From: Utricularia gibba
Taxonomy: Eukaryota > Streptophyta > Magnoliopsida > Lamiales > Lentibulariaceae
Direction: 5' to 3'
NCBI GenBank assembly: GCA_002189035.1
Contig: NEEC01000111.1
Location: forward strand, 32,501 to 67,500
Length of the DNA: 35,000 bases
How positions within the stretch are numbered: position 1 is the first letter of the stretch; each line of letters begins with the position of its first letter. Shown piece after piece: positions 848 to 34,845 of this stretch. The notes under the pieces are model-generated. The model was not told where the DNA came from and did not search any database. It saw nothing but the letters and a program-made list of their open reading frames with translations. The position numbers were made by a program, and so were the translations under genes.

Positions 848-1669
848 CCGAGCGTCCCTTGCGCGCGGTACCGCAGCGCCATCTCGCTCGCCATGCCCGC
901 GCGGCATCCCGCGCAAGCGCGCGCATGGCGAGCGGCCAGGCGTCCCGCGCGAGTCATTCCCCGCGCATGCTCGAGCACGGCGTGCGGGCGGGCGTCCCGC
1001 GCGAGGCCATCCCCGCGCATGTTCGATCATGGCGTGCGGGGGGCGTCCGCGCGAGGCCATGCCCGCCCATGTCCGAGCATGGCGCGCGGGCGGGCGTCCC
1101 GCGCGAGACATTCCCCGCCCATGTCCGAGCATGGCGTGCGGGCGGGCGTCCCGTGGGAGTCATTCCCCGCGCATGCTCGAGCATGGCGCGCGGCGCCGTC
1201 CGCGCGAGACATTCCCCGCGCATGCTCGAGCAAGGCGTGCGGGCGGGCGTCCATGGCGAGTCACCGCCCACGCATGGCGTGCGGACGCCCGTCCCCGCGC
1301 GAGACATCGAACGTGCTTGCTCGAGCATCTTGAGGGGGAACCCACCCTACTCGCCCGATGGAGGTGCTGCCTCCACGCCATGCCCACGGAGCCGGCGCCG
1401 CACGCCTGGGGCACACCGCCCCGAGGGTGGGCCGGGTGCCTCTCGAGACACCTCCCCCCTCAAGAAGGGAGAACATGCCAAAACCCAGGTGGCGGCACTG
1501 GACATCCAAATGTTGAAAAAAGCGTGGCTTTTTTCGGTGGGCCACAAGGCGCCCGAGGGTGGGCCCAGTGCCTCCAGAGACACCTCCCCCCTCAAGAAGG
1601 GAGATCATGCCAAAGGGAGGTGGCGGCACTGGACATCCAAATGCCAAAAAAGCATGACTTTTCTCGAAA
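848..1669 (+). repeat. Unit 0, edge unit with both A and B markers
   Basis: It starts with ccgagcgtccc (shared with base 1) instead of the usual leader, and m1-m2 are missing or unrecognisable. From about 966 the monomers are regular: m4, m5, then m6a (gcgagacattccccgcc, a B marker) near 1070, m6 (gtgggagtcatt, an A marker) near 1121, m7, m8 (gagcaagg, an A marker) near 1225, and m9. It is the only unit seen with both m6a and m8. Confidence 0.85.
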
Positions 1670-2487
1670 GGCCATTCTGGACGAGCCATCGCCTAGCATG
1701 CTCGAGCGCGGCGTGCGTCCCGCGCGAGGCATGCCCGCCCCATGTCGAGCATGGCGCGGGCGGGCGTCCCGCGGGAGACATTCCCCCCCATGTCCGAGCA
1801 TGGCGTGCAAGCGGGCGTCCATGTGAGTCATTCCCCGCGCATGCTCGAGCATGGCGTGCGGGCGGGCGTCCCGCGCGAGGCCATCCCCGCGCCGATCATG
1901 GCGTGCGGGGGGCGTCCCGCGCGAGGCCATGCCCCCATGTCCGAGCATGCGTGCGGGCGGGCGTCCCGTGGGAGTCATTCCCCGCGCATGCTCGAGCATG
2001 CGCGCGGGCGGCCGTCCCGCGCGAGACATTCCCCGCGCATGCTCGAGCAAGGCGTGCGGGCGGGCGTCCATGCGAGTCACCGCCCCACGCATGGCGTGCG
2101 GACGCCGTCCCGCGCGAGACATCGAACGTGCTTGCTCGAGCATCTTGAGGGGGAACCCACCCTACTCGCCCCGATGGAGGTGTGCCTGCCACGCCATGCC
2201 ACGGAGCCGGCGCCGCACGCCTGGGGCACACCGCCCCCGAGGGTGGGCCGGGTGCCTCTCGAGACACCTCCCCCTCAAGAAGGGAGAACATGCCAAAACC
2301 CAGGTGGCGGCACTGGACATCCAAATGTTGAAAAAAGCGTGGCTTTTTTCGGTGGGCCACAAGGCGCCCCGAGGGTGGGCCCAGTGCCTCCAGAGACACC
2401 TCCCCCCTCAAGAAGGGAGATCATGCCAAAAGGGAGGTGGCGGCACTGGACATCCAAATGCCCAAAAAAGCATGACTTTTCTCGAAA
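1670..2487 (+). repeat. Unit 1, type A, 818 bp
   Basis: Both A markers are present (gtgggagtcatt and gagcaagg...gtccatgcgagtcacc). The m5 start is clipped: gcgccgatcatgg replaces gcgcatgttcgatcatgg near 1890. Confidence 0.9.
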
Positions 2488-3315
2488 GGCCATTCTGGAC
2501 GAGCCATCGCCTAGCATGCTCGAGCGCGGCGTGCGTCCCGCGCGAGGCCATGCCCGCCATGTCCGAGCATGGCGCGCGGGCGGGCGTCCGCGGGAGACAT
2601 TCCCCGCCCATGTCCGAGCATGGCGTGCAAGCGGGCGTCCCTTGTGAGTCATTCCCCGCGCATGCTCGAGCATGGCGTGCGGGCGGGCGTCCCGCGCGAG
2701 GCCATCCCCGCGCATGTTCGATCATGGCGTGCGGGGGGGCGTCCCGCGCGAGGCCATGCCCGCCCATGTCCGAGCATGGCGTGCGGGCGGGCGTCCCGTG
2801 GGAGTCATTCCCCGCGCATGCTCGAGCATGGCGCGCGGGCGCCGTCGCGCGAGACATTCCCGCGCATGCTGGAGCAAGGCGTGCGGGCGGGCGTCCATGG
2901 CGAGTCACCGCCCACGCATGGCGTGCGGACGCCCGTCCCGCGCGAGACATCGAACGTGCTTGCTCGAGCATCTTGAGGGGGAACCCACCCCTACTCGCCC
3001 CGATGGAGGTGCTGCCTCCACGCCATGCCCACGGAGCCGGCGCCGCACGCCTGGGGCACACCCCCCGAGGGTGGGCCGGGTGCCTCTCGAGACACCTCCC
3101 CCCTCAAGAAGGGAGAACATGCCAAAACCCAGGTGGCGGCACTGGACATCCAAATGTTGAAAAAAGCGTGGCTTTTTTCGGTGGGCCACAAGGCGCCCCG
3201 AGGGTGGGCCCAGTGCCTCCAGAGACACCTCCCCCTCAAGAAGGGAGATCATGCCAAAAGGGAGGTGGCGGCACTGGACATCCAAATGCCCAAAAAAGCA
3301 TGACTTTTCTCGAAA
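2488..3315 (+). repeat. Unit 2, type A, 828 bp
   Basis: Regular A unit with gtgggagtcatt and the ctggagcaagg form of m8. Confidence 0.93.
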
Positions 3316-4122
3316 GGCCATTCTGGACGAGCCATCGCCTAGCATGCTCGAGCGCGGCGTGCGTCCCGCGCGAGGCCATGCCCGCCCATGTCCGAGCATG
3401 GCGCGCGGGCGGGCGTCCCGCGGGAGACATTCCCCGCCCATGTCCGAGCATGGCGTGCAAGCGGGCGTCCCTTGTGAGTCATTCCCCGCGCATGCTCGAG
3501 CATGGCGTGCGGGCGGGCGTCCCGCGCGAGGCCATCCCCGCGCATGTTCGATCATGGCGTGCGGGGGGCGTCCCGCGCGAGGCCATGCCCGCCCATGTCC
3601 GAGCATGGCGCGCGGGCGGCGTCCGCGCGAGACATTCCCCATGTCCGAGCATGTGCGGGCGGGCGTCCCGCGCGAGACATTCCCCGCGCATGCTCGAGCA
3701 TGGCGCGCGGGCGGGCCGTCCCGCGCGAGACATTCCCCGCATGGCGTGCGGACGCCCGTCCCGCGCGAGACCTCGAGCATCTTGAGGGGGAACCCACCCC
3801 TACTCGCCCGATGGAGGTGCTGCCTCCACGCCATGCCCACGGAGCCGGCGCCGCGCCTGGGGCACACCGCCCCCGAGGGTGGGCCGGGTGCCTCTCGAGA
3901 CACCTCCCCCTCAAGAAGGGAGAACATGCCAAAACCCAGGTGGCGGCACTGGACATCCAAATGTTGAAAAAAGCGTGGCTTTTTTCGGTGGGCCACAAGG
4001 CGCCCCGAGGGTGGGCCCAGTGCCTCCAGAGACACCTCCCCCTCAAGAAGGGAGATCATGCCAAAAGGGAGGTGGCGGCACTGGACATCCAAATGCCCAA
4101 AAAAGCATGACTTTTCTCGAAA
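3316..4122 (+). repeat. Unit 3, type B, 807 bp
   Basis: m6a is present and m8 absent. About 16 bases of m9 (around catcgaacgtgcttg) are missing near 3770, so gcgagac joins ctcgagcatc directly. m6b is shortened (catgtgcggg) near 3650. Confidence 0.9.
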
Positions 4123-4947
4123 GGCCATTCTGGACGAGCCATCGCCTAGCATGCTCGAGCGCGGCGTGCGTCCCGCGCGAGGCCATGCCCGCCCATGTCC
4201 GAGCATGGCGCGCGGGCGGGCGTCCCGCGGGAGACATTCCCCGCCCATGTCCGAGCATGGCGTGCAAGCGGGCGTCCCTTGTGAGTCATTCCCCGCGCAT
4301 GCTCGAGCATGGCGTGCGGGCGGGCGTCCCGCGCGAGGCCATCCCGCGCATGTTCGATCATGGCGTGCGGGGGGCGTCCGCGCGAGGCCATGCCCGCCCA
4401 TGTCCGAGCATGGCGCGCGGGCGGGCGTCCCGCGCGAGACATTCCCCCATGTCGAGCATGGCGTGCGGCGGGCGTCCCGCGCGAGACATTCCCGCGCATG
4501 CTCGAGCATGGCGCGCGGGCGGCCGTCCCGCGCGAGACATTCCCCGCGCATGGCGTGCGGACGCGTCCCGCGCGAGACATCGAACGTGCTTGCTCGAGCA
4601 TCTTGAGGGGGAACCCACCCCTACTCGCCCCGATGGAGGTGCTGCCTCCACGCCATGCCCACGGAGCCGGCGCCGCACGCCTGGGGCACACCGCCCCCGA
4701 GGGTGGGCCGGGTGCCTCTCGAGACACCTCCCCCCTCAAGAAGGGAGAACATGCCAAAACCCAGGTGGCGGCACTGGACATCCAAATGTTGAAAAAAGCG
4801 TGGCTTTTTTCGGTGGGCCACAAGGCGCCCCGAGGGTGGGCCCAGTGCCTCCAGAGACACCTCCCCCTCAAGAAGGGAGATCATGCCAAAAGGGAGGTGG
4901 CGGCACTGGACATCCAAATGCCCAAAAAAGCATGACTTTTCTCGAAA
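4123..4947 (+). repeat. Unit 4, type B, 825 bp
   Basis: Regular B unit. m6b begins catgtcgagc, with one c lost. Confidence 0.92.
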
Positions 4948-5748
4948 GGCCATTCTGGACGAGCCATCGCCTAGCATGCTCGAGCGCGGCGTGCGTCCCG
5001 CGCGAGGCCATGCCCGCCCATGTCCGAGCATGGCGCGCGGGCGGGCGTCCCGCGGGAGACATTCCCGCCCATGTCCGAGCATGGCGTGCAAGCGGGCGTC
5101 CCTTGTGAGTCATTCCCCGCGCATGCTCGAGCATGGCGTGCGGGGGGCGTCCCGCGCGAGGCCATCCCGCGCATGTTCGATCATGGCGTGCGGGGGGGCG
5201 TCCCGCGCGAGGCCATGCCCGCCCATGTCCGAGCATGGCGCGCGATGCATGTCGAGCATGGCGTGCGGGCGGCGTCCCGCGCGAGACATTCCCCGCGCAT
5301 GCTCGAGCATGGCGCGCGGGCGGCCGTCCGCGCGAGACATTCCCGCGCATGGCGTGCGGACGCCCGTCCCGCGCGAGACATCGAACGTGCTTGCTCGAGC
5401 ATCTTGAGGGGGAACCCACCCCTACTCGCCCCGATGGAGGTGCTGCCTCCACGCCATGCCCACGGAGCCGGCGCCGCACGCCTGGGGCACACCGCCCCCG
5501 AGGGTGGGCCGGGTGCCTCTCGAGACACCTCCCCCTCAAGAAGGGAGAACATGCCAAAACCCAGGTGGCGGCACTGGACATCCAAATGTTGAAAAAAGCG
5601 TGGCTTTTTTCGGTGGGCCACAAGGCGCCCCGAGGGTGGGCCCAGTGCCTCCAGAGACACCTCCCCCCTCAAGAAGGGAGATCATGCCAAAAGGGAGGTG
5701 GCGGCACTGGACATCCAAATGCCCAAAAAAGCATGACTTTTCTCGAAA
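4948..5748 (+). repeat. Unit 5, type B, 801 bp
   Basis: m6a is almost wholly deleted: gcgcgatgcatgtcgagc at about 5239-5256 joins its first bases to m6b. m8 is absent. Confidence 0.88.
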
Positions 5749-6575
5749 GGCCATTCTGGACGAGCCATCGCCTAGCATGCTCGAGCGCGGCGTGCGTCCG
5801 CGCGAGGCCATGCCCGCCCATGTCCGAGCATGGCGCGCGGGCGGGCGTCCCGCGGGAGACATTCCCGCCCATGTCCGAGCATGGCGTGCAAGCGGGCGTC
5901 CCTTGTGAGTCATTCCCCCGCATGCTCGAGCATGGCGTGCGGCGGGCGTCCCGCGCGAGGCCATCCCGCGCATGTTCGATCATGGCGTGCGGGGGGGCGT
6001 CCCGCGCGAGGCCATGCCCGCCCATGTCCGAGCATGGCGTGCGGGCGGGCGTCCCGTGGGAGTCATTCCCGCGCATGCTCGAGCATGGCGCGCGGGCGGC
6101 CGTCCCGCGCGAGACATTCCCCGCGCATGCTGGAGCAAGGCGTGCGGGCGGGCGTCCATGGCGAGTCACCGCCCCGCATGGCGTGCGGACGCCCGTCCCG
6201 CGCGAGACATCGAACGTGCTTGCTCGAGCATCTTGAGGGGGAACCCACCCCTACTCGCCCCGATGGAGGTGCTGCCTCCACGCCATGCCCACGGAGCCGG
6301 CGCCGCACGCCTGGGGCACACCGCCCCCGAGGGTGGGCCGGGTGCCTCTCGAGACACCTCCCCCCTCAAGAAGGGAGAACATGCCAAAACCCAGGTGGCG
6401 GCACTGGACATCCAAATGTTGAAAAAAGCGTGGCTTTTTTCGGTGGGCCACAAGGCGCCCCGAGGGTGGGCCCAGTGCCTCCAGAGACACCCCCCTCAAG
6501 AAGGGAGATCATGCCAAAAGGGAGGTGGCGGCACTGGACATCCAAATGCCCAAAAAAGCATGACTTTTCTCGAAA
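5749..6575 (+). repeat. Unit 6, type A, 827 bp
   Basis: Regular A unit. m8 ends accgccccgcatgg, with two bases lost; the same lesion is in unit 17, also the first A of a run. Confidence 0.92.
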
Positions 6576-7407
6576 GGCCATTCTGGACGAGCCATCGCCT
6601 AGCATGCTCGAGCGCGGCGTGCGTCCCGCGCGAGGCCATGCCCGCCCATGTCCGAGCATGGCGCGCGGCGGGCGTCCCGCGGGAGACATTCCCCGCCCAT
6701 GTCCGAGCATGGCGTGCAAGCGGGCGTCCCTTGTGAGTCATTCCCCGCGCATGCTCGAGCATGGCGTGCGGGCGGGCGTCCCGCGAGGCCATCCCGCGCA
6801 TGTTCGATCATGGCGTGCGGGGGGCGTCCCGCGCGAGGCCATGCCCGCCCATGTCCGAGCATGGCGTGCGGGCGGGCGTCCCGTGGGAGTCATTCCCCGC
6901 GCATGCTCGAGCATGGCGCGCGGGCGGCCGTCCCGCGCGAGACATTCCCCGCGCATGCTGGAGCAAGGCGTGCGGGCGGGCGTCCATGGCGAGTCACCGC
7001 CCCACGCATGGCGTGCGGACGCCCGTCCCGCGCGAGACATCGAACGTGCTTGCTCGAGCATCTTGAGGGGGAACCCACCCCTACTCGCCCCGATGGAGGT
7101 GCTGCCTCCACGCCATGCCCACGGAGCCGGCGCCGCACGCCTGGGGCACACCGCCCCCCGAGGGTGGGCCGGGTGCCTCTCGAGACACCTCCCCCTCAAG
7201 AAGGGAGAACATGCCAAAACCCAGGTGGCGGCACTGGACATCCAAATGTTGAAAAAAGCGTGGCTTTTTTCGGTGGGCCACAAGGCGCCCCGAGGGTGGG
7301 CCCAGTGCCTCCAGAGACACCTCCCCCTCAAGAAGGGAGATCATGCCAAAAGGGAGGTGGCGGCACTGGACATCCAAATGCCCAAAAAAGCATGACTTTT
7401 CTCGAAA
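6576..7407 (+). repeat. Unit 7, type A, 832 bp
   Basis: Regular A unit with the ctggagcaagg form of m8. Confidence 0.93.
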
Positions 7408-8238
7408 GGCCATTCTGGACGAGCCATCGCCTAGCATGCTCGAGCGCGGCGTGCGTCCCGCGCGAGGCCATGCCCGCCCATGTCCGAGCATGGCGCGCGG
7501 GCGGGCGTCCCGCGGGAGACATTCCCGCCCATGTCCGAGCATGGCGTGCAAGCGGGCGTCCCTTGTGAGTCATTCCCCGCGCATGCTCGAGCATGGCGTG
7601 CGGGCGGGCGTCCCGCGCGAGGCCATCCCCGCGCATGTTCGATCATGGCGTGCGGGGGCGTCCGCGCGAGGCATGCCCCGCCCATGTCCGAGCATGGCGT
7701 GCGGGCGGGCGTCCCGTGGGAGTCATTCCCCGCGCATGCTCGAGCATGGCGCGCGGGCGGCCGTCCGCGCGAGACATTCCCGCGCATGCTCGAGCAAGGC
7801 GTGCGGGCGGGCGTCCATGGCGAGTCACGCCCCACGCATGGCGTGCGGACGCCCGTCCCGCGCGAGACATCGAACGTGCTTGCTCGAGCATCTTGAGGGG
7901 GAACCCACCCCTACTCGCCCCGATGGAGGTGCTGCCTCACGCCATGCCCACGGAGCCGGCGCCGCACGCCTGGGGCACACCGCCCCCCGAGGGTGGGCCG
8001 GGTGCCTCTCGAGACACCTCCCCCCTCAAGAAGGGAGAACATGCCAAAACCCAGGTGGCGGCACTGGACATCCAAATGTTGAAAAAAGCGTGGCTTTTTT
8101 CGGTGGGCCACAAGGCGCCCCGAGGGTGGGCCCAGTGCCTCCAGAGACACCTCCCCCCTCAAGAAGGGAGATCATGCCAAAAGGGAGGTGGCGGCACTGG
8201 ACATCCAAATGCCCAAAAAAGCATGACTTTTCTCGAAA
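7408..8238 (+). repeat. Unit 8, type A, 831 bp
   Basis: Regular A unit with the ctcgagcaagg form of m8. The m5/m6 junction reads gaggcatgccccgcc near 7670. Confidence 0.93.
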
Positions 8239-9063
8239 GGCCATTCTGGACGAGCCATCGCCTAGCATGCTCGAGCGCGGCGTGCGTCCCGCGCGAGGCC
8301 ATGCCCGCCCATGTCCGAGCATGGCGCGCGGGCGGCGTCCCGCGGGAGACATTCCCCCCATGTCCGAGCATGGCGTGCAAGCGGGCGTCCCTTGTGAGTC
8401 ATTCCCCGCGCATGCTCGAGCATGGCGTGCGGGCGGGCGTCCCGCGCGAGGCCATCCCCGCGCATGTTCGATCATGGCGTGCGGGGGGGCGTCCCGCGCG
8501 AGGCCATGCCCGCCCATGTCCGAGCATGGCGTCCCGCGCGAGACATTCCCCGCCCATGTCCGAGCATGGCGTGCGGGCGGGCGTCCCGCGCGAGACATTC
8601 CCGCGCATGCTCGAGCATGGCGCGCGGGCGGCCGTCCCGCGCGAGACATTCCCCGCGCATGGCGTGCGGACGCCCGTCCCGCGCGAGACATCGAACGTGC
8701 TTGCTCGAGCATCTTGAGGGGGAACCCACCCCTACTCGCCCCGATGGAGGTGCTGCCTCCACGCCATGCCCACGGAGCCGGCGCCGCACGCCTGGGGCAC
8801 ACCGCCCCCCGAGGGTGGGTGGGCCGGGTGCCTCTCGAGACACCTCCCCCTCAAGAAGGGAGAACATGCCAAAACCCAGGTGGCGGCACTGGACATCCAA
8901 ATGTTGAAAAAAGCGTGGCTTTTTTCGGTGGGCCACAAGGCGCCCCGAGGGTGGGCCCAGTGCCTCCAGAGACACCTCCCCCCTCAAGAAGGGAGATCAT
9001 GCCAAAAGGGAGGTGGCGGCACTGGACATCCAAATGCCCAAAAAAGCATGACTTTTCTCGAAA
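8239..9063 (+). repeat. Unit 9, type B, 825 bp
   Basis: m6a has lost its GC core (catggcgtcccgcgcgagac near 8525). The first half-repeat carries a 4-bp gggt insertion near 8817. Confidence 0.9.
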
Positions 9064-9862
9064 GGCCATTCTGGACGAGCCATCGCCTAGCATGCTCGAG
9101 CGCGGCGTGCGTCCCGCGCGAGGCCATGCCCGCCCATGTCCGAGCATGGCGCGCGGGCGGGCGTCCCGCGGGAGACATTCCCCGCCCATGTCCGAGCATG
9201 GCGTGCAAGCGGGCGTCCCTTGTGAGTCATTCCCCGCGCATGCTCGAGCATGGCGTGCGGGCGGGCGTCCCGCGCGAGGCCATCCCGCGCATGTTCGATC
9301 ATGGCGTGCGGGGGGGCGTCCCGCGCGAGGCCATGGCCATGTCGAGCATGAGACATTCCCGCCCATGTCCGAGCATGGCGTGCGGGCGGGCGTCCGCGCG
9401 AGACATTCCCCGCGCATGCTCGAGCATGGCGCGCGGGCGGCCGTCCCGCGCGAGACATTCCCCGCATGGCGTGCGGACGCCCGTCCCGCGCGAGACATCG
9501 AACGTGCTTGCTCGAGCATCTTGAGGGGAACCCACCCCTACTCGCCCCGATGGAGGTGCTGCCTCCACGCCATGCCCACGGAGCCGGCGCCGCACGCCTG
9601 GGGCACACCGCCCCCGAGGGTGGGCCGGGTGCCTCTCGAGACACCTCCCCCTCAAGAAGGGAGAACATGCCAAAACCCAGGTGGCGGCACTGGACATCCA
9701 AATGTTGAAAAAAGCGTGGCTTTTTTCGGGGGCCACAAGGCGCCCCGAGGGTGGGCCCAGTGCCTCCAGAGACACCTCCCCCTCAAGAAGGGAGATCATG
9801 CCAAAAGGGAGGTGGCGGCACTGGACATCCAAATGCCCAAAAAAGCATGACTTTTCTCGAAA
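9064..9862 (+). repeat. Unit 10, type B, 799 bp
   Basis: The m5/m6a junction is scrambled and shortened at about 9331-9352 (ccatggccatgtcgagcatg). m6b and m7 follow, and m8 is absent. Confidence 0.87.
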
Positions 9863-10694
9863 GGCCATTCTGGACGAGCCATCGCCTAGCATGCTCGAGC
9901 GCGGCGTGCGTCCCGCGCGAGGCCATGCCCGCCCATGTCCGAGCATGGCGCGCGGGCGGGCGTCCCGCGGGAGACATTCCCGCCCATGTCCGAGCATGGC
10001 GTGCAAGCGGGCGTCCCTTGTGAGTCATTCCCCGCGCATGCTCGAGCATGGCGTGCGGGCGGGCGTCCCGCGCGAGGCCATCCCCGCGCATGTTCGATCA
10101 TGGCGTGCGGGGGGCGTCCCGCGCGAGGCCATGCCCGCCCATGTCCGAGCATGGCGCGCGGGCGGGCGTCCCGCGCGAGACATTCCCCGCCCATGTCCGA
10201 GCATGGCGTGCGGGCGGGCGTCCCGCGGAGACATTCCCCGCGCATGCTCGAGCATGGCGCGCGGGCGGCCGTCCCGCGCGAGACATTCCCCGCGCATGGC
10301 GTGCGGACGCCCGTCGCGCGAGACATCGAACGTGCTTGCTCGAGCATCTTGAGGGGGAACCCACCCCTACTCGCCCCGATGGAGGTGCTGCCTCCACGCC
10401 ATGCCCACGGAGCCGGCGCCGCACGCCTGGGGCACACCGCCCCCCGAGGGTGGGCCGGGTGCCTCTCGAGACACCTCCCCCTCAAGAAGGGAGAACATGC
10501 CAAAACCCAGGTGGCGGCACTGGACATCCAAATGTTGAAAAAAGCGTGGCTTTTTTCGGTGGGCCACAAGGCGCCCCGAGGGTGGGCCCAGTGCCTCCAG
10601 AGACACCTCCCCCCTCAAGAAGGGAGATCATGCCAAAAGGGAGGTGGCGGCACTGGACATCCAAATGCCCAAAAAAGCATGACTTTTCTCGAAA
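9863..10694 (+). repeat. Unit 11, type B reference, 832 bp
   Basis: A complete B unit. After m5 come m6a at 10140-10191, m6b at 10192-10242, m7 at 10243-10294 and m9 from 10295. m8 is missing. The nine monomers give the same overall length as an A unit. Confidence 0.94.
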
Positions 10695-11508
10695 GGCCAT
10701 TCTGGACGAGCCATCGCCTAGCATGCTCGAGCGCGGCGTGCGTCCCGCGCGAGGCCATGCCCGCCCATGTCCGAGCATGGCGCGCGGGCGGGCGTCCCGC
10801 GGGAGACATTCCCCGCCCATGTCCGAGCATGGCGTGCAAGCGGGCGTCCCTTGTGAGTCATTCCCCGCGCATGCTCGAGCATGGCGTGCGGGCGGGCGTC
10901 CCGCGCGAGGCCATCCCCGCGCATGTTCGATCATGGCGTGCGGGGGGGTCCCGCGCGAGGCCATGCCCGCCCATGTCCGAGCATGGCGTGCGGGGCGTCC
11001 CGGCCGCGCGAGTCATTCCCGCGCATGCTCGAGCATGGCGCGCGGGCGCCGTCCCGCGCGAGACATTCCCCGCGCATGCTGCGGCGTGCGGGCGGGCGTC
11101 CACGCCCGCATGGCGTGCGACGCCCGTCCCGCGCGAGACATCGAACGTGCTTGCTCGAGCATCTTGAGGGGGAACCCACCCCTACTCGCCCCGATGGAGG
11201 TGCTGCCTCCACGCCATGCCCACGGAGCCGGCGCCGCACGCCTGGGGCACACCGCCCCCGAGGGTGGGCCGGGTGCCTCTCGAGACACCTCCCCCCTCAA
11301 GAAGGGAGAACATGCCAAAACCCAGGTGGCGGCACTGGACATCCAAATGTTGAAAAAAGCGTGGCTTTTTTCGGTGGGCCACAAGGCGCCCCGAGGGTGG
11401 GCCCAGTGCCTCCAGAGACACCTCCCCCTCAAGAAGGGAGATCATGCCAAAAGGGAGGTGGCGGCACTGGACATCCAAATGCCCAAAAAAGCATGACTTT
11501 TCTCGAAA
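10695..11508 (+). repeat. Unit 12, type A, eroded m8, 814 bp
   Basis: A single catgtccgag monomer after m5 and gagtcatt in m6 place it with A. m8 is reduced (catgctgcggcgtgcggg then gtccacgcccgcatgg) near 11077-11111. Confidence 0.83.
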
Positions 11509-11683
11509 GGCCATTCTGGACGAGCCATCGCCTAGCATGCTCGAGCGCGGCGTGCGTCCCGCGCGAGGCCATGCCCGCCCATGTCCGAGCATGGCGCGCG
11601 GGCGGGCGTCCCGCGGGAGACATTCCCCGCCCATGTCCGAGCATGGCGTGCAAGCGGGCGTCCCTTGTGAGTCATTCCCCGCG

Positions 11684-11697
11684 CATGCTCGAGCATG
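11684..11697. other. Perfect 14-bp palindrome in m4
   Basis: CATGCTCGAGCATG is its own reverse complement and holds an XhoI core. It recurs at the start of m4 in nearly every unit. It could be a dimeric protein site or merely a by-product of monomer sequence. Confidence 0.9.
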
Positions 11698-11838
11698 GCG
11701 TGCGGGCGGGCGTCCCGCGCGAGGCCATCCCCGCGCATGTTCGATCATGGCGTGCGGGGGGCGTCCCGCGCGAGGCCATGCCCGCCCATGTCCGAGCATG
11801 GCGTGCGGGCGGGCGTCCCGTGGGAGTCATTCCCCGCG

Positions 11839-11852
11839 CATGCTCGAGCATG
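11839..11852. other. Perfect 14-bp palindrome in m7
   Basis: Second copy of CATGCTCGAGCATG in the unit, 155 bp after the m4 copy. m5 and m6, between them, carry imperfect versions with TTCGAT and TCCGAG cores. Confidence 0.9.
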
Positions 11853-12030
11853 GCGCGCGGGCGGCCGTCCCGCGCGAGACATTCCCCGCGCATGCTGGAG
11901 CAAGGCGTGCGGGCGGGCGTCCATGGCGAGTCACCGCCCCACGCATGGCGTGCGGACGCCCGTCCCGCGCGAGACATCGAACGTGCTTGCTCGAGCATCT
12001 TGAGGGGGAACCCACCCCTACTCGCCCCGA

Positions 12031-12047
12031 TGGAGGTGCTGCCTCCA
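12031..12047. other. Linker hairpin
   Basis: TGGAGG and CCTCCA pair across a 5-base loop (TGCTG). It is conserved in the regular units and absent from the divergent unit -1. Confidence 0.75.
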
Positions 12048-12145: not shown

Positions 12146-12188
12146 AACATGCCAAAACCCAGGTGGCGGCACTGGACATCCAAATGTT

Positions 12189-23478: not shown

Positions 23479-24307
23479 GGCCATTCTGGACGAGCCATCG
23501 CCTAGCATGCTCGAGCGCGGCGTGCGTCCCGCGCGAGGCCATGCCCGCCCATGTCCGAGCATGGCGCGGGCGGGCGTCCCGCGGGAGACATTCCCCGCCC
23601 ATGTCCGAGCATGGCGTGCAAGCGGGCGTCCCTTGTGAGTCATTCCCCGCGCATGCTCGAGCATGGCGTGCGGGCGGGCGTCCCGCGCGAGGCCATCCCC
23701 GCGCATGTTCGATCATGGCGTGCGGGGGGCGTCCCGCGCGAGGCCATGCCCGCCCATGTCCGAGCATGGCGTGCGGGCGGGCGTCCCGGGAGTCATTCCC
23801 CGCGCATGCTCGAGCATGGCGCGCGGGCGGCCGTCCCGCGCGAGACATTCCCCGCGCATGCGCAAGGCGTGCGGGCGGGCGTCCATGGCGAGTCACCGCC
23901 CCACGCATGGCGTGCGGACGCCCGTCCCGCGCGAGACATCGAACGTGCTTGCTCGAGCATCTTGAGGGGGAACCCACCCCTACTCGCCCCGATGGAGGTG
24001 CTGCCTCCACGCCATGCCCACGGAGCCGGCGCCGCACGCCTGGGGCACACCGCCCCCGAGGGTGGGCCGGGTGCCTCTCGAGACACCTCCCCCCTCAAGA
24101 AGGGAGAACATGCCAAAACCCAGGTGGCGGCACTGGACATCCAAATGTTGAAAAAAGCGTGGCTTTTTTCGGTGGGCCACAAGGCGCCCCGAGGGTGGGC
24201 CCAGTGCCTCCAGAGACACCTCCCCCCTCAAGAAGGGAGATCATGCCAAAAGGGAGGTGGCGGCACTGGACATCCAAATGCCCAAAAAAGCATGACTTTT
24301 CTCGAAA
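23479..24307 (+). repeat. Unit 29, type A, 829 bp
   Basis: A markers are present; m6 is cccgggagtcatt and m8 starts catgcgcaagg, three bases or so shorter. Confidence 0.91.
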
Positions 24308-25142
24308 GGCCATTCTGGACGAGCCATCGCCTAGCATGCTCGAGCGCGGCGTGCGTCCCGCGCGAGGCCATGCCCGCCCATGTCCGAGCATGGCGCGCGG
24401 GCGGGCGTCCCGCGGGAGACATTCCCCGCCCATGTCCGAGCATGGCGTGCAAGCGGGCGTCCCTTGTGAGTCATTCCCCGCGCATGCTCGAGCATGGCGT
24501 GCGGGCGGGCGTCCCGCGCGAGGCCATCCCCGCGCATGTTCGATCATGGCGTGCGGGGGGCGTCCCGCGCGAGGCCATGCCCGCCCATGTCCGAGCATGG
24601 CGTGCGGGCGGCGTCCCGTGGGAGTCATTCCCCGCGCATGCTCGAGCATGGCGCGCGGCGGCCGTCCCGCGCGAGACATTCCCCGCGCATGCTGAGCAAG
24701 GCGTGCGGGCGGGCGTCCATGGCGAGTCACCGCCCCACGCATGGCGTGCGGACGCCCGTCCCGCGCGAGACATCGAACGTGCTTGCTCGAGCATCTTGAG
24801 GGGGAACCCACCCCTACTCGCCCCGATGGAGGTGCTGCCTCCACGCCATGCCCACGGAGCCGGCGCCGCACGCCTGGGGCACACCGCCCCCCGAGGGTGG
24901 GCCGGGTGCCTCTCGAGACACCTCCCCCCTCAAGAAGGGAGAACATGCCAAAACCCAGGTGGCGGCACTGGACATCCAAATGTTGAAAAAAGCGTGGCTT
25001 TTTTCGGTGGGCACAAAGGCGCCCCGAGGGTGGGCCCAGTGCCTCCAGAGACACCTCCCCCCTCAAGAAGGGAGATCATGCCAAAAGGGAGGTGGCGGCA
25101 CTGGACATCCAAATGCCCAAAAAAGCATGACTTTTCTCGAAA
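24308..25142 (+). repeat. Unit 30, type A, 835 bp
   Basis: Regular A unit with the ctgagcaagg form of m8. gggcacaaagg replaces gggccacaagg after the hairpin. Confidence 0.93.
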
Positions 25143-25935
25143 GGCCATTCTGGACGAGCCATCGCCTAGCATGCTCGAGCGCGGCGTGCGTCCCGCGCGA
25201 GGCCATGCCCGCCCATGTCCGAGCATGGCGCGCGGGGGCGTCCCGCGGGAGACATTCCCCGCCCATGTCCGAGCATGGCGTGCAAGCGGGCGTCCCTTGT
25301 GAGTCATTCCCCGCGCATGCTCGAGCATGGCGTGCGGCGGGCGTCCCGCGCGAGGCCATCCCGCGCATGTTCGATCATGGCGTGCGGGGGCGTCCCGCGC
25401 CATGCCCGCCCATGTCGAGCAGCGTCCCGCGCCATTCCCCGCCCATGTCCGAGCATGGCGCGGGCGGGCGTCCCGCGCGAGACATTCCCCGCGCATGCTC
25501 GAGCATGGGCGCGGGCGCCGTCCGCGCCCCCGCGCATGGCGTGCGGACGCCCGTCCCGCGCGAGACATCGAACGTGCTTGCTCGAGCATCTTGAGGGGAA
25601 CCCACCCCTACTCGCCCCGATGGAGGTGCTGCCTCCACGCCATGCCCACGGAGCCGGCGCCGCACGCCTGGGGCACACCGCCCCCCGAGGGTGGGCCGGG
25701 TGCCTCTCGAGACACCTCCCCCCTCAAGAAGGGAGAACATGCCAAAACCCAGGTGGCGGCACTGGACATCCAAATGTTGAAAAAAGCGTGGCTTTTTTCG
25801 GTGGGCCACAAGGCGCCCCGAGGGTGGGCCCAGTGCCTCCAGAGACACCTCCCCCCTCAGAAGGGAGATCATGCCAAAAGGGAGGTGGCGGCACTGGACA
25901 TCCAAATGCCCAAAAAAGCATGACTTTTCTCGAAA
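25143..25935 (+). repeat. Unit 31, type B, 793 bp
   Basis: The m5/m6a/m6b region is eroded (ccgcgccatgcccgcc; catgtcgagcagcgtcccg) near 25395-25440. m8 is absent. Confidence 0.86.
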
Positions 25936-26761
25936 GGCCATTCTGGACGAGCCATCGCCTAGCATGCTCGAGCGCGGCGTGCGTCCCGCGCGAGGCCATG
26001 CCCGCCCATGTCCGAGCATGGCGCGCGGGCGGGCGTCCCGCGGAGACATTCCCCGCCCATGTCCGAGCATGGCGTGCAAGCGGGCGTCCCTTGTGAGTCA
26101 TTCCCCGCGCATGCTCGAGCATGGCGTGCGGGCGGGCGTCCCGCGCAGGCCATCCCCGCGCATGTTCGATCATGGCGTGCGGGGGGCGTCCGCGCGAGGC
26201 CATGCCCGCCCATGTCCGAGCATGGCGCGCGGGCGGCGTCCGCGCGAGACATTCCCCGCCCATGTCCGAGCATGGCGTGCGGGCGGGCGCCGCGCGAGAC
26301 ATTCCCCGCGCATGCTCGAGCATGGCGCGCGGGCGGCCGTCCCCGCGAGACATTCCCGCGCATGGCGTGCGGACGCCCGTCCGCGCGAGACATCGAACGT
26401 GCTTGCTCGAGCATCTTGAGGGGGAACCCACCCCTACTCGCCCCGATGGAGGTGCTGCCTCCACGCCATGCCCACGGAGCCGGCGCCGCACGCCTGGGGC
26501 ACACCGCCCCCGAGGGTGGGCCGGGTGCCTCTCGAGACACCTCCCCCCTCAAGAAGGGAGAACATGCCAAAACCCAGGTGGCGGCACTGGACATCCAAAT
26601 GTTGAAAAAAGCGTGGCTTTTTTCGGTGGGCCACAAGGCGCCCCGAGGGTGGGCCCAGTGCCTCCAGAGACACCTCCCCCCTCAAGAAGGGAGATCATGC
26701 CAAAAGGGAGGTGGCGGCACTGGACATCCAAATGCCCAAAAAAGCATGACTTTTCTCGAAA
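25936..26761 (+). repeat. Unit 32, type B, 826 bp
   Basis: Regular B unit with minor single-base losses (cgcggagac, gcgcaggcc, gggcgccgcgcg). Confidence 0.92.
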
Positions 26762-27590
26762 GGCCATTCTGGACGAGCCATCGCCTAGCATGCTCGAGCG
26801 CGGCGTGCGTCCCGCGCGAGGCCATGCCCGCCCATGTCCGAGCATGGCGCGCGGGCGGGCGTCCCGCGGGAGACATTCCCCGCCCATGTCCGAGCATGGC
26901 GTGCAAGCGGGCGTCCCTTGTGAGTCATTCCCCGCGCATGCTCGAGCATGGCGTGCGGGCGGGCGTCCCGCGCGAGGCCATCCCCGCGCATGTTCGATCA
27001 TGGCGTGCGGGGGGGCGTCCCGCGCGAGGCCATGCCCGCCCATGTCCGAGCATGGCGTGCGGGCGGGCGTCCCGTGGGAGTCATTCCCCGCGCATGCTCG
27101 AGCATGGCGCGCGGGCCGTCCCGCGCGAGACATTCCCCGCGCATGCTGAGCAAGGCGTGCGGGCGGGCGTCCATGGCGAGTCACCGCCCCACGCATGGCG
27201 TGCGGACGCCCGTCCGCGCGAGACATCGAACGTGCTTGCTCGAGCATCTTGAGGGGGAACCCACCCCTACTCGCCCCGATGGAGGTGCTGCCTCCACGCC
27301 ATGCCCACGGAGCCGGCGCCGCACGCCTGGGGCACACCGCCCCCGAGGTGGGCCGGGTGCCTCTCGAGACACCTCCCCCCTCAAGAAGGGAGAACATGCC
27401 AAAACCCAGGTGCGGCACTGGACATCCAAATGTTGAAAAAAGCGTGGCTTTTTTCGGTGGGCCACAAGGCGCCCGAGGGTGGGCCCAGTGCCTCCAGAGA
27501 CACCTCCCCCCTCAAGAAGGGAGATCATGCCAAAAGGGAGGTGCGGCACTGGACATCCAAATGCCCAAAAAAGCATGACTTTTCTCGAAA
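26762..27590 (+). repeat. Unit 33, type A, 829 bp
   Basis: Regular A unit with the ctgagcaagg form of m8. Both half-repeats read ggtgcggcactgg, one g-g-c step short. Confidence 0.93.
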
Positions 27591-28413
27591 GGCCATTCTG
27601 GACGAGCCATCGCCTAGCATGCTCGAGCGCGGCGTGCGTCCCGCGCGGCCATGCCCGCCCATGTCCGAGCATGGCGCGCGCGGGCGTCCCGCGGGAGACA
27701 TTCCCCGCCCATGTCCGAGCATGGCGCAAGCGGGCGTCCCTTGTGAGTCATTCCCCGCGCATGCTCGAGCATGGCGTGCGGCGGGCGTCCCGCGCGAGGC
27801 CATCCCGCGCATGTTCGATCATGGCGTGCGGGGGGCGTCCCGCGCGAGGCCATGCCCGCCCATGTCCGAGCATGGCGTGCGGCGGGCGTCCCGTGGAGTC
27901 ATTCCCCGCGCATGCTCGAGCATGGCGCGCGCGGCGGCCGTCCCGCGCGAGACATTCCCGCGCATGCTGGAGCAAGGCGTGCGGGCGGCGTCCATGGCGA
28001 GTCACCGCCCCACGCATGGCGTGCGGACGCCCGTCCCGCGCGAGACATCGAACGTGCTTGCTCGAGCATCTTGAGGGGAACCCACCCCTACTCCCCGATG
28101 GAGGTGCTGCCTCCACGCCATGCCCACGGAGCCGGCGCCGCACGCCTGGGCACACCGCCCCCCCGAGGGTGGGCCGGGTGCCTCTCGAGACACCTCCCCC
28201 CTCAAGAAGGGAGAACATGCCAAAACCCAGGTGGCGGCACTGGACATCCAAATGTTGAAAAAAGCGTGGCTTTTTTCGGTGGGCCACAAGGCGCCCCGAG
28301 GGTGGGCCCAGTGCCTCCAGAGACACCTCCCCCCTCAAGAAGGGAGATCATGCCAAAAGGAGGTGGCGGCACTGGACATCCAAATGCCCAAAAAAGCATG
28401 ACTTTTCTCGAAA
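27591..28413 (+). repeat. Unit 34, type A, 823 bp
   Basis: A markers are present with the ctggagcaagg form of m8. m3 begins catggcgcaagcggg. Confidence 0.91.
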
Positions 28414-29194
28414 GGCCATTCTGGACGAGCCATCGCCTAGCATGCTCGAGCGCGGCGTGCGTCCCGCGCGAGGCCATGCCCGCCCATGTCCGAGCATGGC
28501 GCGCGGGCGGGCGTCCCGCGGGAGACATTCCCCGCCCATGTCCGAGCATGGCGTGCAAGCGGGCGTCCCTTGTGAGTCATTCCCCGCGCATGCTCGAGCA
28601 TGGCGTGCGGGCGGGCGTCCCGCGCGAGGCCATCCCCGCGCATGTTCGATCATGGCGTGCGGGGGGTCCCGCGCGAGGCCATGCCCGCCCATGTCGAGCA
28701 TGTGCGGGTCATTCCCCGCGCATGCTCGAGCATGGCGCGCGGCGGCCGTCCCGCGCGAGACATTCCCCGCGCATGCGCGGCGTGACATTCCCCGCATGGC
28801 GTGCGGACGCCCGTCCCGCGCGAGACATCGAACGTGCTTGCTCGAGCATCTTGAGGGGAACCCACCCCTACTCGCCCCGATGGAGGTGCTGCCTCCACGC
28901 CATGCCCACGGAGCCGGCGCCGCACGCCTGGGGCACACCGCCCCCCGAGGGTGGGCCGGGTGCCTCTCGAGACACCTCCCCCCTCAAGAAGGGAGAACAT
29001 GCCAAAACCCAGGTGGCGGCACTGGACATCCAAATGTTGAAAAAAGCGTGGCTTTTTTCGGTGGCCACAAGGCGCCCCGAGGGTGGGCCCAGTGCCTCCA
29101 GAGACACCTCCCCCCTCAAGAAGGGAGATCATGCCAAAAGGGAGGTGCGGCACTGGACATCCAAATGCCCAAAAAAGCATGACTTTTCTCGAAA
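28414..29194 (+). repeat. Unit 35, eroded, probably type A, 781 bp
   Basis: m6 is cut to catgtcgagcatgtgcgg then gtcattcc near 28690, and m8 is reduced to catgcgcggcgtgacattcc near 28773. One monomer between m5 and m7 favours A. Confidence 0.72.
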
Positions 29195-29922
29195 GGCCAT
29201 TCTGGACGAGCCATCGCCTAGCATGCTCGAGCGCGGCGTGCGTCCCCGCGTGCCCTGTGGCATGCCGCGCGGGCGGGCGGGCTTTGGAGGGCGGGTCGGG
29301 CGCCCAAGTCATTCCCCGCGCATGCTCGAGCATGGCGTGCGGGCGGGCGTCCCGCGCGAGGCCATCCCCGCGCATGTTCGATCATGGCGTGCGGGGGGGG
29401 TCCCGCGCGAGGCCATGCCCGCCCATGTCCGAGCATGGCGGGCGTCCCGCGCGAGTCATGTCCCCGCGCATGCTCTCGAGCATGGCGCGCGGGCGGCCGT
29501 CCCGCGCGAGACATTCCCCGCGCATGGCATGCGGAGTCACCGTCCCGCGCGAGACATCGAACGTGCTTGCTCGAGCATCTTGAGGGGGAACCCACCCCTA
29601 CTCGCCCCGATGGAGGTGCTGCCTCCACGCCATGCCCACGGAGCCGGCGCCGCACGCCTGGGGCACACCGCCCCCCGAGGTGGGCCGGGTGCCTCTCGAG
29701 ACACCTCCCCCCTCAAGAAGGAGAACATGCCAAAACCCAGGTGGCGGCACTGGACATCCAAATGTTGAAAAAAGCGTGGCTTTTTTCGGTGGGCCACAAG
29801 GCGCCCCGAGGGTGGCCCAGTGCCTCCAGAGACACCTCCCCCCTCAAGAAGGGAGATCATGCCAAAAGGAGGTGGCGGCACTGGACATCCAAATGCCCAA
29901 AAAAGCATGACTTTTCTCGAAA
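29195..29922 (+). repeat. Unit 36, m1-m3 replaced, 728 bp
   Basis: After gcgtgcgtcc, positions 29247-29308 (including gccctgtggcatgccg and gctttggagggcgggtcgg) do not match m1-m3. The unit resumes at gtcattccccgcg, the end of m3. A gagtcaccg remnant in m8/m9 near 29535 favours A. Confidence 0.78.
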
Positions 29923-30720
29923 GGCCATTCTGGACGAGCCATCGCCTAGCATGCTCGAGCGCGGCGTGCGTCCCGCGCGAGGCCATGCCCGCCCATGTCC
30001 GAGCATGGCGCGCGCGGCGCGGCGTCCCGCGGGAGACATTCCCCGCCCATGTCCGAGCATGGCGTGCAAGCGGGCGTCCCTTGTGAGTCATTCCCCGCGC
30101 ATGCTCGAGCATGGCGTGCGGCGGCGTCCCGCGCGAGGCCATCCCGCGCATGTTCGATCATGGCGTGCGGGGCGTCCCGCGCGAGGCCATGCCCGCCCAT
30201 GTCCGAGCATGGCGCGCCCGCGCGAGCCGCGCATGTCCGAGCATGGCGTTCCCGCGCGAGACATTCCCGCGCATGCTCGAGCATGGCGCGCGGCGCGTCC
30301 CGCGCGAGACATTCCCCGCGCATGGCGTGCGGACGCCCGTCCCGCGCGAGACATCGAACGTGCTTGCTCGAGCATCTTGAGGGGAACCCACCCCTACTCG
30401 CCCCGATGGAGGTGCTGCCTCCACGCCATGCCCACGGAGCCGGCGCCGCACGCCTGGGGCACACCGCCCCCCGAGGGTGGGCCGGGTGCCTCTCGAGACA
30501 CCTCCCCCCTCAAGAAGGGAGAACATGCCAAAACCCAGGTGGCGGCACTGGACATCCAAATGTTGAAAAAAGCGTGGCTTTTTTCGGTGGCCACAAGGCG
30601 CCCCGAGGGTGGGCCCAGTGCCTCCAGAGACACCTCCCCCCTCAAGAAGGGAGATCATGCCAAAAGGAGGTGGCGGCACTGGACATCCAAATGCCCAAAA
30701 AAGCATGACTTTTCTCGAAA
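29923..30720 (+). repeat. Unit 37, type B, 798 bp
   Basis: m6a is shortened (gcgcgcccgcgcgagccgcg) and m6b is shortened (catggcgttcccgcg) near 30210-30260. m8 is absent. Confidence 0.85.
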
Positions 30721-31545
30721 GGCCATTCTGGACGAGCCATCGCCTAGCATGCTCGAGCGCGGCGTGCGTCCCGCGCGAGGCCATGCCCGCCCATGTCCGA
30801 GCATGGCGCGCGGGCGGGCGTCCCGCGGGAGACATTCCCCGCCCATGTCCGAGCATGGCGTGCAAGCGGGCGTCCCTTGTGAGTCATTCCCCGCGCATGC
30901 TCGAGCATGGCGTGCGGCGGGCGTCCCGCGCGAGGCCATCCCCGCGCATGTTCGATCATGGCGTGCGGGGGGCGTCCCGCGCGAGGCCATGCCCGCCCAT
31001 GTCCGAGCATGGCGCGCGGCGGGCGTCCCGCGCGAGACATTCCCCGCCCATGCGAGCATGGCGTGCGCGGGCGTCCCGCGCGAGACATTCCCCGCGCATG
31101 CTCGAGCATGGCGCGCGGGCGGCCGCGCGCGAGACATTCCCCGCGCATGGCGTGCGGACGCCCGTCCCGCGCGAGACATCGAACGTGCTTGCTCGAGCAT
31201 CTTGAGGGGAACCCACCCCTACTCGCCCCGATGGAGGTGCTGCCTCCACGCCATGCCCACGGAGCCGGCGCCGCACGCCTGGGGCACACCGCCCCCGAGG
31301 GTGGGCCGGGTGCCTCTCGAGACACCTCCCCCCTCAAGAAGGGAGAACATGCCAAAACCCAGGTGGCGGCACTGGACATCCAAATGTTGAAAAAAGCGTG
31401 GCTTTTTTCGTGGGCCACAAGGCGCCCCGAGGGTGGGCCCAGTGCCTCCAGAGACACCTCCCCCCTCAAGAAGGGAGATCATGCCAAAAGGGAGGTGGCG
31501 GCACTGGACATCCAAATGCCCAAAAAAGCATGACTTTTCTCGAAA
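30721..31545 (+). repeat. Unit 38, type B, 825 bp
   Basis: m6a is present and m6b starts catgcgagcatgg. m8 is absent, and the first T-arm is followed by cgtggg with one g lost. Confidence 0.9.
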
Positions 31546-32376
31546 GGCCATTCTGGACGAGCCATCGCCTAGCATGCTCGAGCGCGGCGTGCGTCCCGCG
31601 CGAGGCCATGCCCGCCCATGTCCGAGCATGGCGCGCGGGCATGCGTCCCGCGGGAGACATTCCCGCCCATGTCCGAGCATGGCGTGCAAGCGGGCGTCCC
31701 TTGTGAGTCATTCCCCGCGCATCGAGCATGGCGTGCGGGGCGGGCGTCCCGCGCGAGGCCATCCCGCGCATGTTCGATCATGGCGTGCGGGGGGCGTCCC
31801 GCGCGAGGCCATGCCCGCCCATGTCCGAGCATGGCGTGCGGCGGGCGTCCCGTGGGAGTCATTCCCCGCGCATGCTCGAGCATGGCGCGCGGGCGGCCGT
31901 CCCGCGCGAGACATTCCCGCGCATGCTGAGCAAGGCGTGCGGGCGGGCGTCCATGGCGAGTCACCGCCCCACGCATGGCGTGCGGACGCCCGTCCCGCGC
32001 GCGACATCGAACGTGCTTGCTCGAGCATCTTGAGGGGGAACCCACCCCTACTCGCCCCGATGGAGGTGCTGCCTCCACGCCATGCCCACGGAGCCGGCGC
32101 CGCACGCCTGGGGCACACCGCCCCCCGAGGGTGGCCGGGTGCCTCTCGAGACACCTCCCCCCTCAAGAAAGGGAGAACATGCCAAAACCCAGGTGGCGGC
32201 ACTGGACATCCAAATGTTGAAAAAAGCGTGGCTTTTTTCGGTGGGCCACAAGGCGCCCCGAGGGTGGGCCCAGTGCCTCCAGAGACACCTCCCCCCTCAA
32301 GAAGGGAGATCATGCCAAAAGGGAGGTGGCGGCACTGGACATCCAAATGCCCAAAAAAGCATGACTTTTCTCGAAA
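31546..32376 (+). repeat. Unit 39, type A, 831 bp
   Basis: A markers are present with the ctgagcaagg form of m8. m4 starts catcgagcatgg, so its palindrome is broken; m2 has gcgggcatgcgtccc near 31637. Confidence 0.91.
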
Positions 32377-33202
32377 GGCCATTCTGGACGAGCCATCGCC
32401 TAGCATGCTCGAGCGCGGCGTGCGTCCCGCGCGAGGCCATGCCCGCCCATGTCCGAGCATGGCGCGCGGGCGGGCGTCCCGCGGGAGACATTCCCCGCCC
32501 ATGTCCGAGCACAAGCGGGCGTCCCTTGTGAGTCATTCCCCGCGCATGCTCGAGCATGGCGTGCGGGCGGGCGTCCCGCGCGAGCCATCCCCATCATGTT
32601 CGATCATGGCGTGCGGGGGGCGTCCGTCCCGCGCGAGGCCATGCCCGCCCATGTCCGAGCATGGCGCGCGGGCGGGCGTCCGCGCGAGACATTCCCCGCC
32701 ATGTCCGAGCATGGCGTGCGGGCGGGCGTCCCGCGCGAGACATTCCCCGCGCATGCTCGAGCATGGCGCGCGGGCGGCCGTCCCGCGCGAGACATCCCCG
32801 CGCATGGCGTGCGGACGCCCGTCCCGCGCGAGACATCGAACGTGCTTGCTCGAGCATCTTTGGGGGAACCCACCCCTACTCGCCCCGATGGAGGTGCTGC
32901 CTCCACGCCATGCCCACGGAGCCGGCGCCGCACGCCTGGGGCACACCGCCCCCCGAGGGTGGGCCGGGTGCCTCTCGAGACACCTCCCCCCTCAAGAAGG
33001 GAGAACATGCCAAAACCCAGGTGGCGGCACTGGACATCCAAATGTTGAAAAAAGCGTGGCTTTTTTCGTGGGCCACAAGGCGCCCCGAGGTGGGCCCAGT
33101 GCCTCCAGAGACACCTCCCCCCTCAAGAAGGGAGATCATGCCAAAAGGGAGGTGGCGGCACTGGACATCCAAATGCCCAAAAAAGCATGACTTTTCTCGA
33201 AA
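32377..33202 (+). repeat. Unit 40, type B, 826 bp
   Basis: m3 is clipped (gagcacaagcggg), m5 starts catcatgttcg, and the linker begins cttTgggggaacc instead of cttgagggggaacc near 32858. Confidence 0.9.
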
Positions 33203-34034
33203 GGCCATTCTGGACGAGCCATCGCCTAGCATGCTCGAGCGCGGCGTGCGTCCCGCGCGAGGCCATGCCCGCCCATGTCCGAGCATGGCGCGCGGGCGGG
33301 CGTCCCGCGGGAGACATTCCCGCCCATGTCCGAGCATGGCGTGCAAGCGGGCGTCCCTTGTGAGTCATTCCCCGCGCATGCTCGAGCATGGCGTGCGGGC
33401 GGGCGTCCCGCGCGAGGCCATCCCCGCGCATGTTCGATCATGGCGTGCGGGGGGCGTCCCGCGCGAGGCCATGCCCGCCCATGTCCGAGCATGGCGTGCG
33501 GGCGGGCGTCCCGTGGGAGTCATTCCCCGCGCATGCTCGAGCATGGCGCGCGGGCGGCCGTCCCGCGCGAGACATTCCCCGCGCATGCTGAGCAAGGCGT
33601 GCGGGCGGCGTCCATGGCGAGTCACCGCCCCACGCATGGCGTGCGGACGCCCGTCCCGCGCGAGACATCGAACGTGCTTGCTCGAGCATCTTGAGGGGGA
33701 ACCCACCCCTACTCGCCCCGATGGAGGTGCTGCCTCCACGCCATGCCCACGGAGCCGGCGCCGCACGCCTGGGGCACACCGCCCCCGAGGGTGGGCCGGG
33801 TGCCTCTCGAGACACCTCCCCCCTCAAGAAGGGAGAACATGCCAAAACCCAGGTGGCGGCACTGGACATCCAAATGTTGAAAAAAGCGTGGCTTTTTTCG
33901 GTGGGCCACAAGGCGCCCGAGGGTGGGCCCAGTGCCTCCAGAGACACCTCCCCCCTCAAGAAGGGAGATCATGCCAAAAGGGAGTGGCGGCACTGGACAT
34001 CCAAATGCCCAAAAAAGCATGACTTTTCTCGAAA
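33203..34034 (+). repeat. Unit 41, type A, 832 bp
   Basis: Regular A unit with the ctgagcaagg form of m8. Confidence 0.93.
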
Positions 34035-34845
34035 GGCCATTCTGGACGAGCCATCGCCTAGCATGCTCGAGCGCGGCGTGCGTCCCGCGCGAGGCCATGC
34101 CCGCCCATGTCCGAGCATGGCGCGCGGGCGGGCGTCCCGCGGGAGACATTCCCCGCCCATGTCCGAGCATGGCGTGCAAGCGGGCGTCCCTTGTGAGTCA
34201 TTCCCCGCGCATGCTCGAGCATGGCGTGCGGGCGGGCGTCCCGCGCGAGCCATCCCCGCGCATGTTCGATCATGGCGTGCGGGGGGCGTCCGCGCGAGGC
34301 CATGCCCGCCCATGTCCGAGCATGGCGTGCGGCGGGCGTCCCGTGGGACATTCCCCGCGCATGCTCGAGCATGGCGCGCGGGCGGCCGCCGCGCGAGACA
34401 TTCCCGCGCATGCTCGAGCAAGGCCGGGCGTCCATGGCGACGCGCATGGCGTGGACGCCCGTCCCGCGCGAGACATCGAACGTGCTTGCTCGAGCATCTT
34501 GAGGGGGAACCCACCCCTACTCGCCCCGATGGAGGTGCTGCCTCCACGCCATGCCCACGGAGCCGGCGCCGCACGCCTGGGGCACACCGCCCCCCGAGGG
34601 TGGGCCGGGTGCCTCTCGAGACACCTCCCCCCTCAAGAAGGGAGAACATGCCAAAACCCAGGTGGCGGCACTGGACATCCAAATGTTGAAAAAAGCGTGG
34701 CTTTTTTCGGTGGGCCACAAGGCGCCCCGAGGGTGGGCCCAGTGCCTCCAGAGACACCTCCCCCCTCAAGAAGGGAGATCATGCCAAAAGGGAGGTGGCG
34801 GCACTGGACATCCAAATGCCCAAAAAAGCATGACTTTTCTCGAAA
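34035..34845 (+). repeat. Unit 42, type A, 811 bp
   Basis: A markers are present but m8/m9 are shortened (gcaaggccgggcgtcc, ggcgacgcgcatggcgtggacgcc) near 34415-34460. Confidence 0.9.

Follow-up and report, generated by a model that had tools for sequence, protein, structure and literature searches.

The window analyzed here is the whole stretch of 35,000 nucleotides at C31:32501-67500, on Utricularia gibba contig NEEC01000111.1 (C and L numbers denote contigs and loci throughout). It is largely occupied by a tandem array of 0.83-kb units and most likely represents one ribosomal DNA (rDNA) intergenic spacer with an enlargement of ∼33 to 35 kb. The array extends from position 848 to the right edge of the window, confirming the span given in the initial annotation of this DNA; 42 exact unit anchors were located at 1679 to 34855, and a junction unit, S, starts at 848, ahead of the first of them. 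A unit consists of ∼8 monomers of 52 bp, together with a constant part in which a 133-bp element occurs twice. The same annotation had divided the units into two linked types, A and B, a distinction borne out by consensus sequences built from chosen clean units (A, 838 bp, 12 units; B, 836 bp, 11 units), which differ by linked changes at approximately positions 286 to 425 plus one homopolymer letter. Its A/B order agrees with our new unit calls. The genome searched comprised 100,091,633 bases in 516 contigs. It contains 46 matches to the chlorophyll a/b-binding family; for one of these proteins, the best solved relatives include LHCB proteins such as AB80 of pea, below a longer LHCI-2 chain in first place, which points to a plant and, by our reading, a flowering one. 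The portion of PMC6982007 drawn on here gives the U. gibba genome as 101 Mb, with accessions NEEC01000001-518.

The array unit is present in many other contigs, and in C467, C389, C501, C502, and C468 it recurs every 12.1 to 12.2 kb. Spacer anchors on C31 itself were found at 9022 and 21196 (12,174 bp apart), within the window, and again from 78420, with N-reading blocks between them. Thus, the spacing of the unit-bearing sequence in these five contigs and in C31 is constant, with one occurrence per rDNA repeat. One side of the spacer could be tied to the 25S gene through sister contigs: the tail that follows the array in C89 (L009:5000-5956) matches C388:24323-25273 at 98%, and 2 bp past this spacer match, positions 2915 to 3401 of 3401 of the large-subunit (LSU) ribosomal RNA (rRNA) begin on the opposite strand. 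Since the spacer of C388 continues into the LSU rRNA 3′ end, we place the array in the rDNA intergenic spacer; given the opposite strand of the LSU rRNA there, rRNA transcription should follow the minus strand of the window.

Spacer copies that could be seen whole consist of S, A, C, and a partial unit (e.g., L009 and L035), with more units in L008 and L013. C is a longer unit that carries both diagnostic monomers and is found in these standard spacers. A and B may be alternative deletion forms of a longer unit, A lacking one 52-bp monomer and B lacking another stretch and bearing a few substitutions. Allowing up to three edits, B junctions numbered 15 in the window and were also present in 4 of the 37 other letter-holding loci scanned (L005, L006, L007, and L002, the last in a mosaic unit). 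B units were found in four contigs, C31, C308, C309, and C310. By alignment, position 380 is C in all 18 standard A units and mostly G in expanded arrays, and allele 148A is carried by 10 of these 18 units and by u01, the first unit after S in the window. A hand count placed 380C often in the A unit just ahead of a B block, which is suggestive only. Separately, regular tandem arrays of 1.02-kb C-like units were observed in L031 (C13:2501-7500), L032 (C23:5001-12500), and L034 (C495:1-5000), each with three to five whole units plus a cut one and none with a B junction.

The size of the expansion can be read from the spacing of spacers along C31, where the unit that follows S begins at position 22210 (left spacer), 34179 (u01 of the window), and 81170 (right spacer). 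The right-hand distance of 46,991 bp compared with the left-hand 11,969 bp leaves an excess of ∼35 kb, or ∼42 units, of which up to 1.75 kb may be due to one additional left block carried by the spacer on the right. A more far-reaching reading would be a single rDNA unit of ∼47 kb whose spacer holds a genuine higher-order repeat in its first stages (three A units then three B units, A3B3), in a genome of only ∼100 Mb, where exchange has bypassed the terminal units. We entertain this only tentatively; if true, it would be a snapshot of spacer subrepeats starting to become a satellite.

Within the window, the array divides into clean and garbled stretches, the clean ones being assigned to the minus strand, that is, the presumed sense of rRNA transcription judged from L035. 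The left spacer part (1..847, minus) is another repeated spacer block, which precedes the array in other copies as well; similar blocks repeat in L038. The adjoining junction unit S (u00; 848..1678, minus) is neither type A nor type B: it has 35 substitutions relative to the A consensus, its A/B call is weak, and it is the best match of L005:772-1601. Positions 1 to 1678, or most of them, aligned to six other spacers with 0 to 7 substitutions and 25 to 41 gap events, and the left flank compared with L020 showed 0 substitutions and 25 gap events. Next comes u01 (1679..2496, minus), a type A unit carrying the standard-spacer alleles 148A and 380C; S and this standard-like first A are distinct from the inner units. 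The inner array comprises four clean segments, all on the minus strand: segment 1 (u02-u13; 2497..12355), ordered A BBB AAA BBB AA with weak calls at u10 and u12 (AABBBAAABBBAA when u01 is included); segment 2 (u17-u23a; 14155..19883), AAABBBA; segment 3 (u26-u33; 21859..28422), BBAABBAA; and segment 4 (u36-u41; 29932..34854), BBABAA. Between them lie three garbled zones without assigned strand (12.4 to 14.2, 19.9 to 21.9, and 28.4 to 29.9 kb). The first (u14-u16; 12356..14154) has deletions of 38 and 51 bp and one 277-bp unit; the second (u23b-u25; 19884..21858) holds a 675-bp unit, a 407-bp unit with a 417-bp jump, and an 893-bp unit; and in the third (u34-u35; 28423..29931) all A/B calls are weak. 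The start of the next unit (34855..35000, minus) closes the window, past which the record reads N. We take the 133 open reading frames of at least 150 amino acids, counted over all frames, to be a by-product of GC-rich repeats.

The order of types was evaluated on 34 units (18 A and 16 B), with u14, u15, u16, u23b, u24, u25, u34, and u35 dropped as weak or short, u00 and the cut u42 also left out, and u10 and u12 kept though weak. In the left half, units three positions apart were of opposite type in 14 of 14 pairs (permutation P = 1e-4), and units six positions apart were of equal type in 10 of 11 (P = 0.004). When the null was a Markov model of equal switch rate, the lag-3 result was reached in 0 of 20,000 runs, and the lag-6 result had a P of 0.008. 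A similar order, B-AA-BBB-AAA-B after an S unit, occurs in C310, whose best register in the window is u01 with the first B skipped (18.1, versus 19.5 for the next register). C310 seems to be a distinct copy, since its allele-380 states differ from those of the window in this best register. The blocks of three described in the initial annotation thus hold for the left half and for C310, except that its first "AAA" was composed of the S junction unit, u01 with its standard-spacer alleles, and one further A.

The blocks of two described for the right part fared worse. From u26 onward, units four positions apart were of equal type in 4 of 8 pairs (P = 0.61), and units two positions apart were of opposite type in 8 of 10 (P = 0.06). 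Checked by hand, the lag-4 pairs matched in 4 of 4 cases within u26-u33 and in none of the four pairs elsewhere, two of which span a garbled zone. We therefore do not retain a separate regime of twos. These right-hand values, together with an ordinary number of A/B switches overall (12 of 30 neighbors; P = 0.14), would fit an order that came from random mixing of two alleles plus some local copying, with the threes arising by chance. However, the left-half lag-3 opposition stands against both nulls and the same pattern appears in C310, making such an origin hardly credible, even allowing that the division into left and right came from the earlier finding and that some post hoc choice remains in the statistics. 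The local six-unit A3B3 alternation acts like a higher-order repeat in a limited sense; the pattern is short, and the assembly cannot guarantee its length and register.

In centromeric alpha satellite, higher-order repeats consist of blocks of unlike units that are repeated as a block, and the initial annotation had likened the present array to centromeric satellites, with multi-unit blocks as the unit of amplification. The likeness to alpha satellite lies in blocks of unlike units repeating blockwise; here, in contrast, there are two types differing over one ∼140-bp stretch, about two to three periods, and an rDNA spacer setting. Whole-unit distance over all left-half pairs had its minimum at lag 6 (18.0). 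Within a type, however, distances at lag 6 (19.5) and lag 4 (18.9) were no lower than those at lags 1, 2, 10, and 11 (17.7 to 18.9), and the identity peaks predicted at six- and four-unit offsets did not appear. Blocks were accordingly not more alike than neighboring units and only the A/B type repeats, a comparison limited by base-level noise.

Shared small lesions had been cited as further support for the copying of multi-unit blocks. The strings themselves are where they were reported: accgccccgcatgg occurs only in u06 and u17, although the underlying 2-bp deletion was also called in u34, and ctgagcaagg, which is the G allele (ctggagcaagg) minus one G, occurs only from u17 on (u17, u29, u32, u38, and u40). 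In a permutation test of 36 units, after five were dropped, features shared at lag 6 on the left and lag 4 on the right showed no excess, whether non-homopolymer (P = 1.0 and 0.50, respectively) or homopolymer class (P = 0.15 and 0.29), and lesion sharing between near and far unit pairs gave P values of 0.11 and 0.53. Most of the shared lesions were homopolymer deletions, and they give no support to the copying of blocks. Where GC-rich repeats are assembled from long reads, minor lesions can mimic copying marks. A centromere-like higher-order satellite with two regimes (A3B3 and then A2B2), amplified as multi-unit blocks, would account for the left-half alternation and for segment 3, with its hand-counted lag-4 agreement. 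Nevertheless, we consider it very improbable, given that the unit is identified as rDNA spacer, that neither within-type identity nor lesions peak at lag 6 or 4, and that lag-4 agreement over the whole right part reached only half of the pairs. What remains of the comparison is the local A3B3 alternation; the rDNA context makes it unlikely that the array is a centromeric satellite, with a centromere position or CENH3 binding.

The kind of change seen in the units bears on the reliability of the assembly. Relative to consensus, 58 units (window plus L005-L007) contained 503 deletions, 75 insertions, and 33 substitutions, and the rate of one-base deletions rose from 0.1% per single letter to as much as 13 to 14% per run of 5 to 6. 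Units in the window had a mean of 10.1 gap events (37 units; range, 0 to 18), compared to 3.3 in standard A units (18 units, 13 of them with 1 to 4 events). The lesions in the window thus look like long-read consensus error more than mutation. The unit at 13878, which is 277 bp long, has letters of the subrepeat domain interleaved with those of the constant domain, as would result from a consensus of misaligned reads. Because the garbled zones fall between the clean segments, the change from threes to twos is inseparable from assembly joins.

These features raise the alternative that the true array is much shorter and that the assembler chained several near-identical 5- to 10-kb stretches of spacer repeats, the AAABBB repeats being copies of one real stretch. 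Consistent with this artefact are the partition of four clean segments by three garbled zones, one of which interleaves the letters of two registers; noise that is dominated by insertions and deletions and reaches about threefold the level in standard units; and the single pattern shared by segments 1 and 2 and C310. If the window comes from the U. gibba PacBio assembly, as we presume, reads would also have been too short to span 34 kb, the mean subread length being 10,385 bases in the section of PMC5793159 consulted. In contrast, B units occur in four contigs, allele 380 differs at matching places of segments 1 and 2 (G in u07, C in u18), C310 begins otherwise, with B ahead of AA, and the neighboring C31 spacers are regularly spaced. 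On balance, we regard a purely artefactual array as rather unlikely.

The explanation we favor, and judge probable, is that a single 25S-18S rDNA spacer expanded and acquired its A3B3 order by unequal exchange or conversion, while neither the small lesions and garbled zones nor the period count and the shift to "twos" can be relied on. A 0.83-kb subrepeat present in few copies in the standard 12.1- to 12.2-kb rDNA repeat would have expanded to ∼40 units or more; unequal exchange or conversion between misaligned repeats would have amplified three- and six-unit stretches, so that a short A3B3 pattern arose on the left, at the array end distal to 25S. The unreliable features would follow from assembly of the array from error-prone long reads. 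Several observations weigh against this account. The stretches beside the window read N, so that the rDNA context rests on sister contigs, and the 18S side was not seen: the scanned loci, which are truncated or read N toward the 18S gene, gave no small-subunit rRNA match. Noise is also not confined to the window, as 5 to 8 gap events were counted in five of the 18 standard A units; "error" is deduced from the kind of change, and some larger deletions could be real. In addition, L006 and L007 fit no register of the window clearly better than others; we had considered them as second versions of its right end and rejected this, since the registers differ too little. If the expansion is real, it offers one place in which unequal exchange can be seen building higher-order structure from two main unit types, with unexpanded sister copies beside the expanded array as the starting point.

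The array belongs to a known class, rDNA spacer subrepeats, and, provided that the assembly is correct, is unusually long. Plant 35S rDNA spacers are described, in the passages of PMC8724763 used here, as carrying length-variable subrepeat arrays between 25S and 18S whose copy number often differs within one individual. The present array resembles these in position and variable copy number; those passages describe neither a spacer with ∼40 units of 0.83 kb nor two alternating types. In the Daphnia pulex complex, copy number of rDNA spacer repeats is altered by unequal exchange and conversion, with terminal repeats rarely taking part (PMC3036644, in the part cited), which recalls the difference of S and the standard-like first A from the inner units; that system is, however, an animal one, and no A/B block order is mentioned in the part cited. 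A tomato satellite derived from the rDNA spacer arose, according to the excerpt of PMC2679016 considered, by great amplification of one subrepeat via segmental duplication. A single spacer subrepeat is strongly amplified here as well, but the tomato arrays lost neighboring rDNA sequence, whereas the spacers neighboring the window keep rDNA spacing. Among the literature matches listed, no paper dealt with the Utricularia rDNA spacer or with A/B block order in such a spacer.

Candidate promoter-like elements were also found in the spacer. TATAAGGGGG occurs on the sense strand in L009 and L035 (two of nine loci scanned), ∼0.7 kb past the 25S end, and related CTTGAGGGGG elements, without the TATA, lie on the sense strand twice per unit in the constant part; the window contains 82 pattern matches for the latter type. 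Both may be likened to the consensus of plant RNA polymerase I promoters. A role as spacer promoters would be a guess, and it is likewise our guess that, in function, the array is most likely of the common kind of spacer repeat that bears promoter- or enhancer-like elements.

Rfam searches returned 0 matches at gathering scores in the window and 0 in L001-L004, which are mostly N. Two sub-threshold riboswitch matches among seven further loci (E up to 1) were taken as chance, and in eight more loci LSU rRNA was matched twice, in one case at the cutoff. A genome search for 5.8S found no match among the 39 of 2,618 candidates scored, which is not evidence of absence. A short internal LSU rRNA match in C346 (L036, 2017-2137; 50.5 bits against a cutoff of 50) lies near 25S-side spacer sequence and is perhaps a broken rDNA copy. 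Finally, several diverged pieces of 25S-side spacer, with 73 to 93% identity, lie at C451:3385954-3392491, on a contig of more than 3.3 Mb, and are perhaps spacer DNA relocated outside the rDNA.

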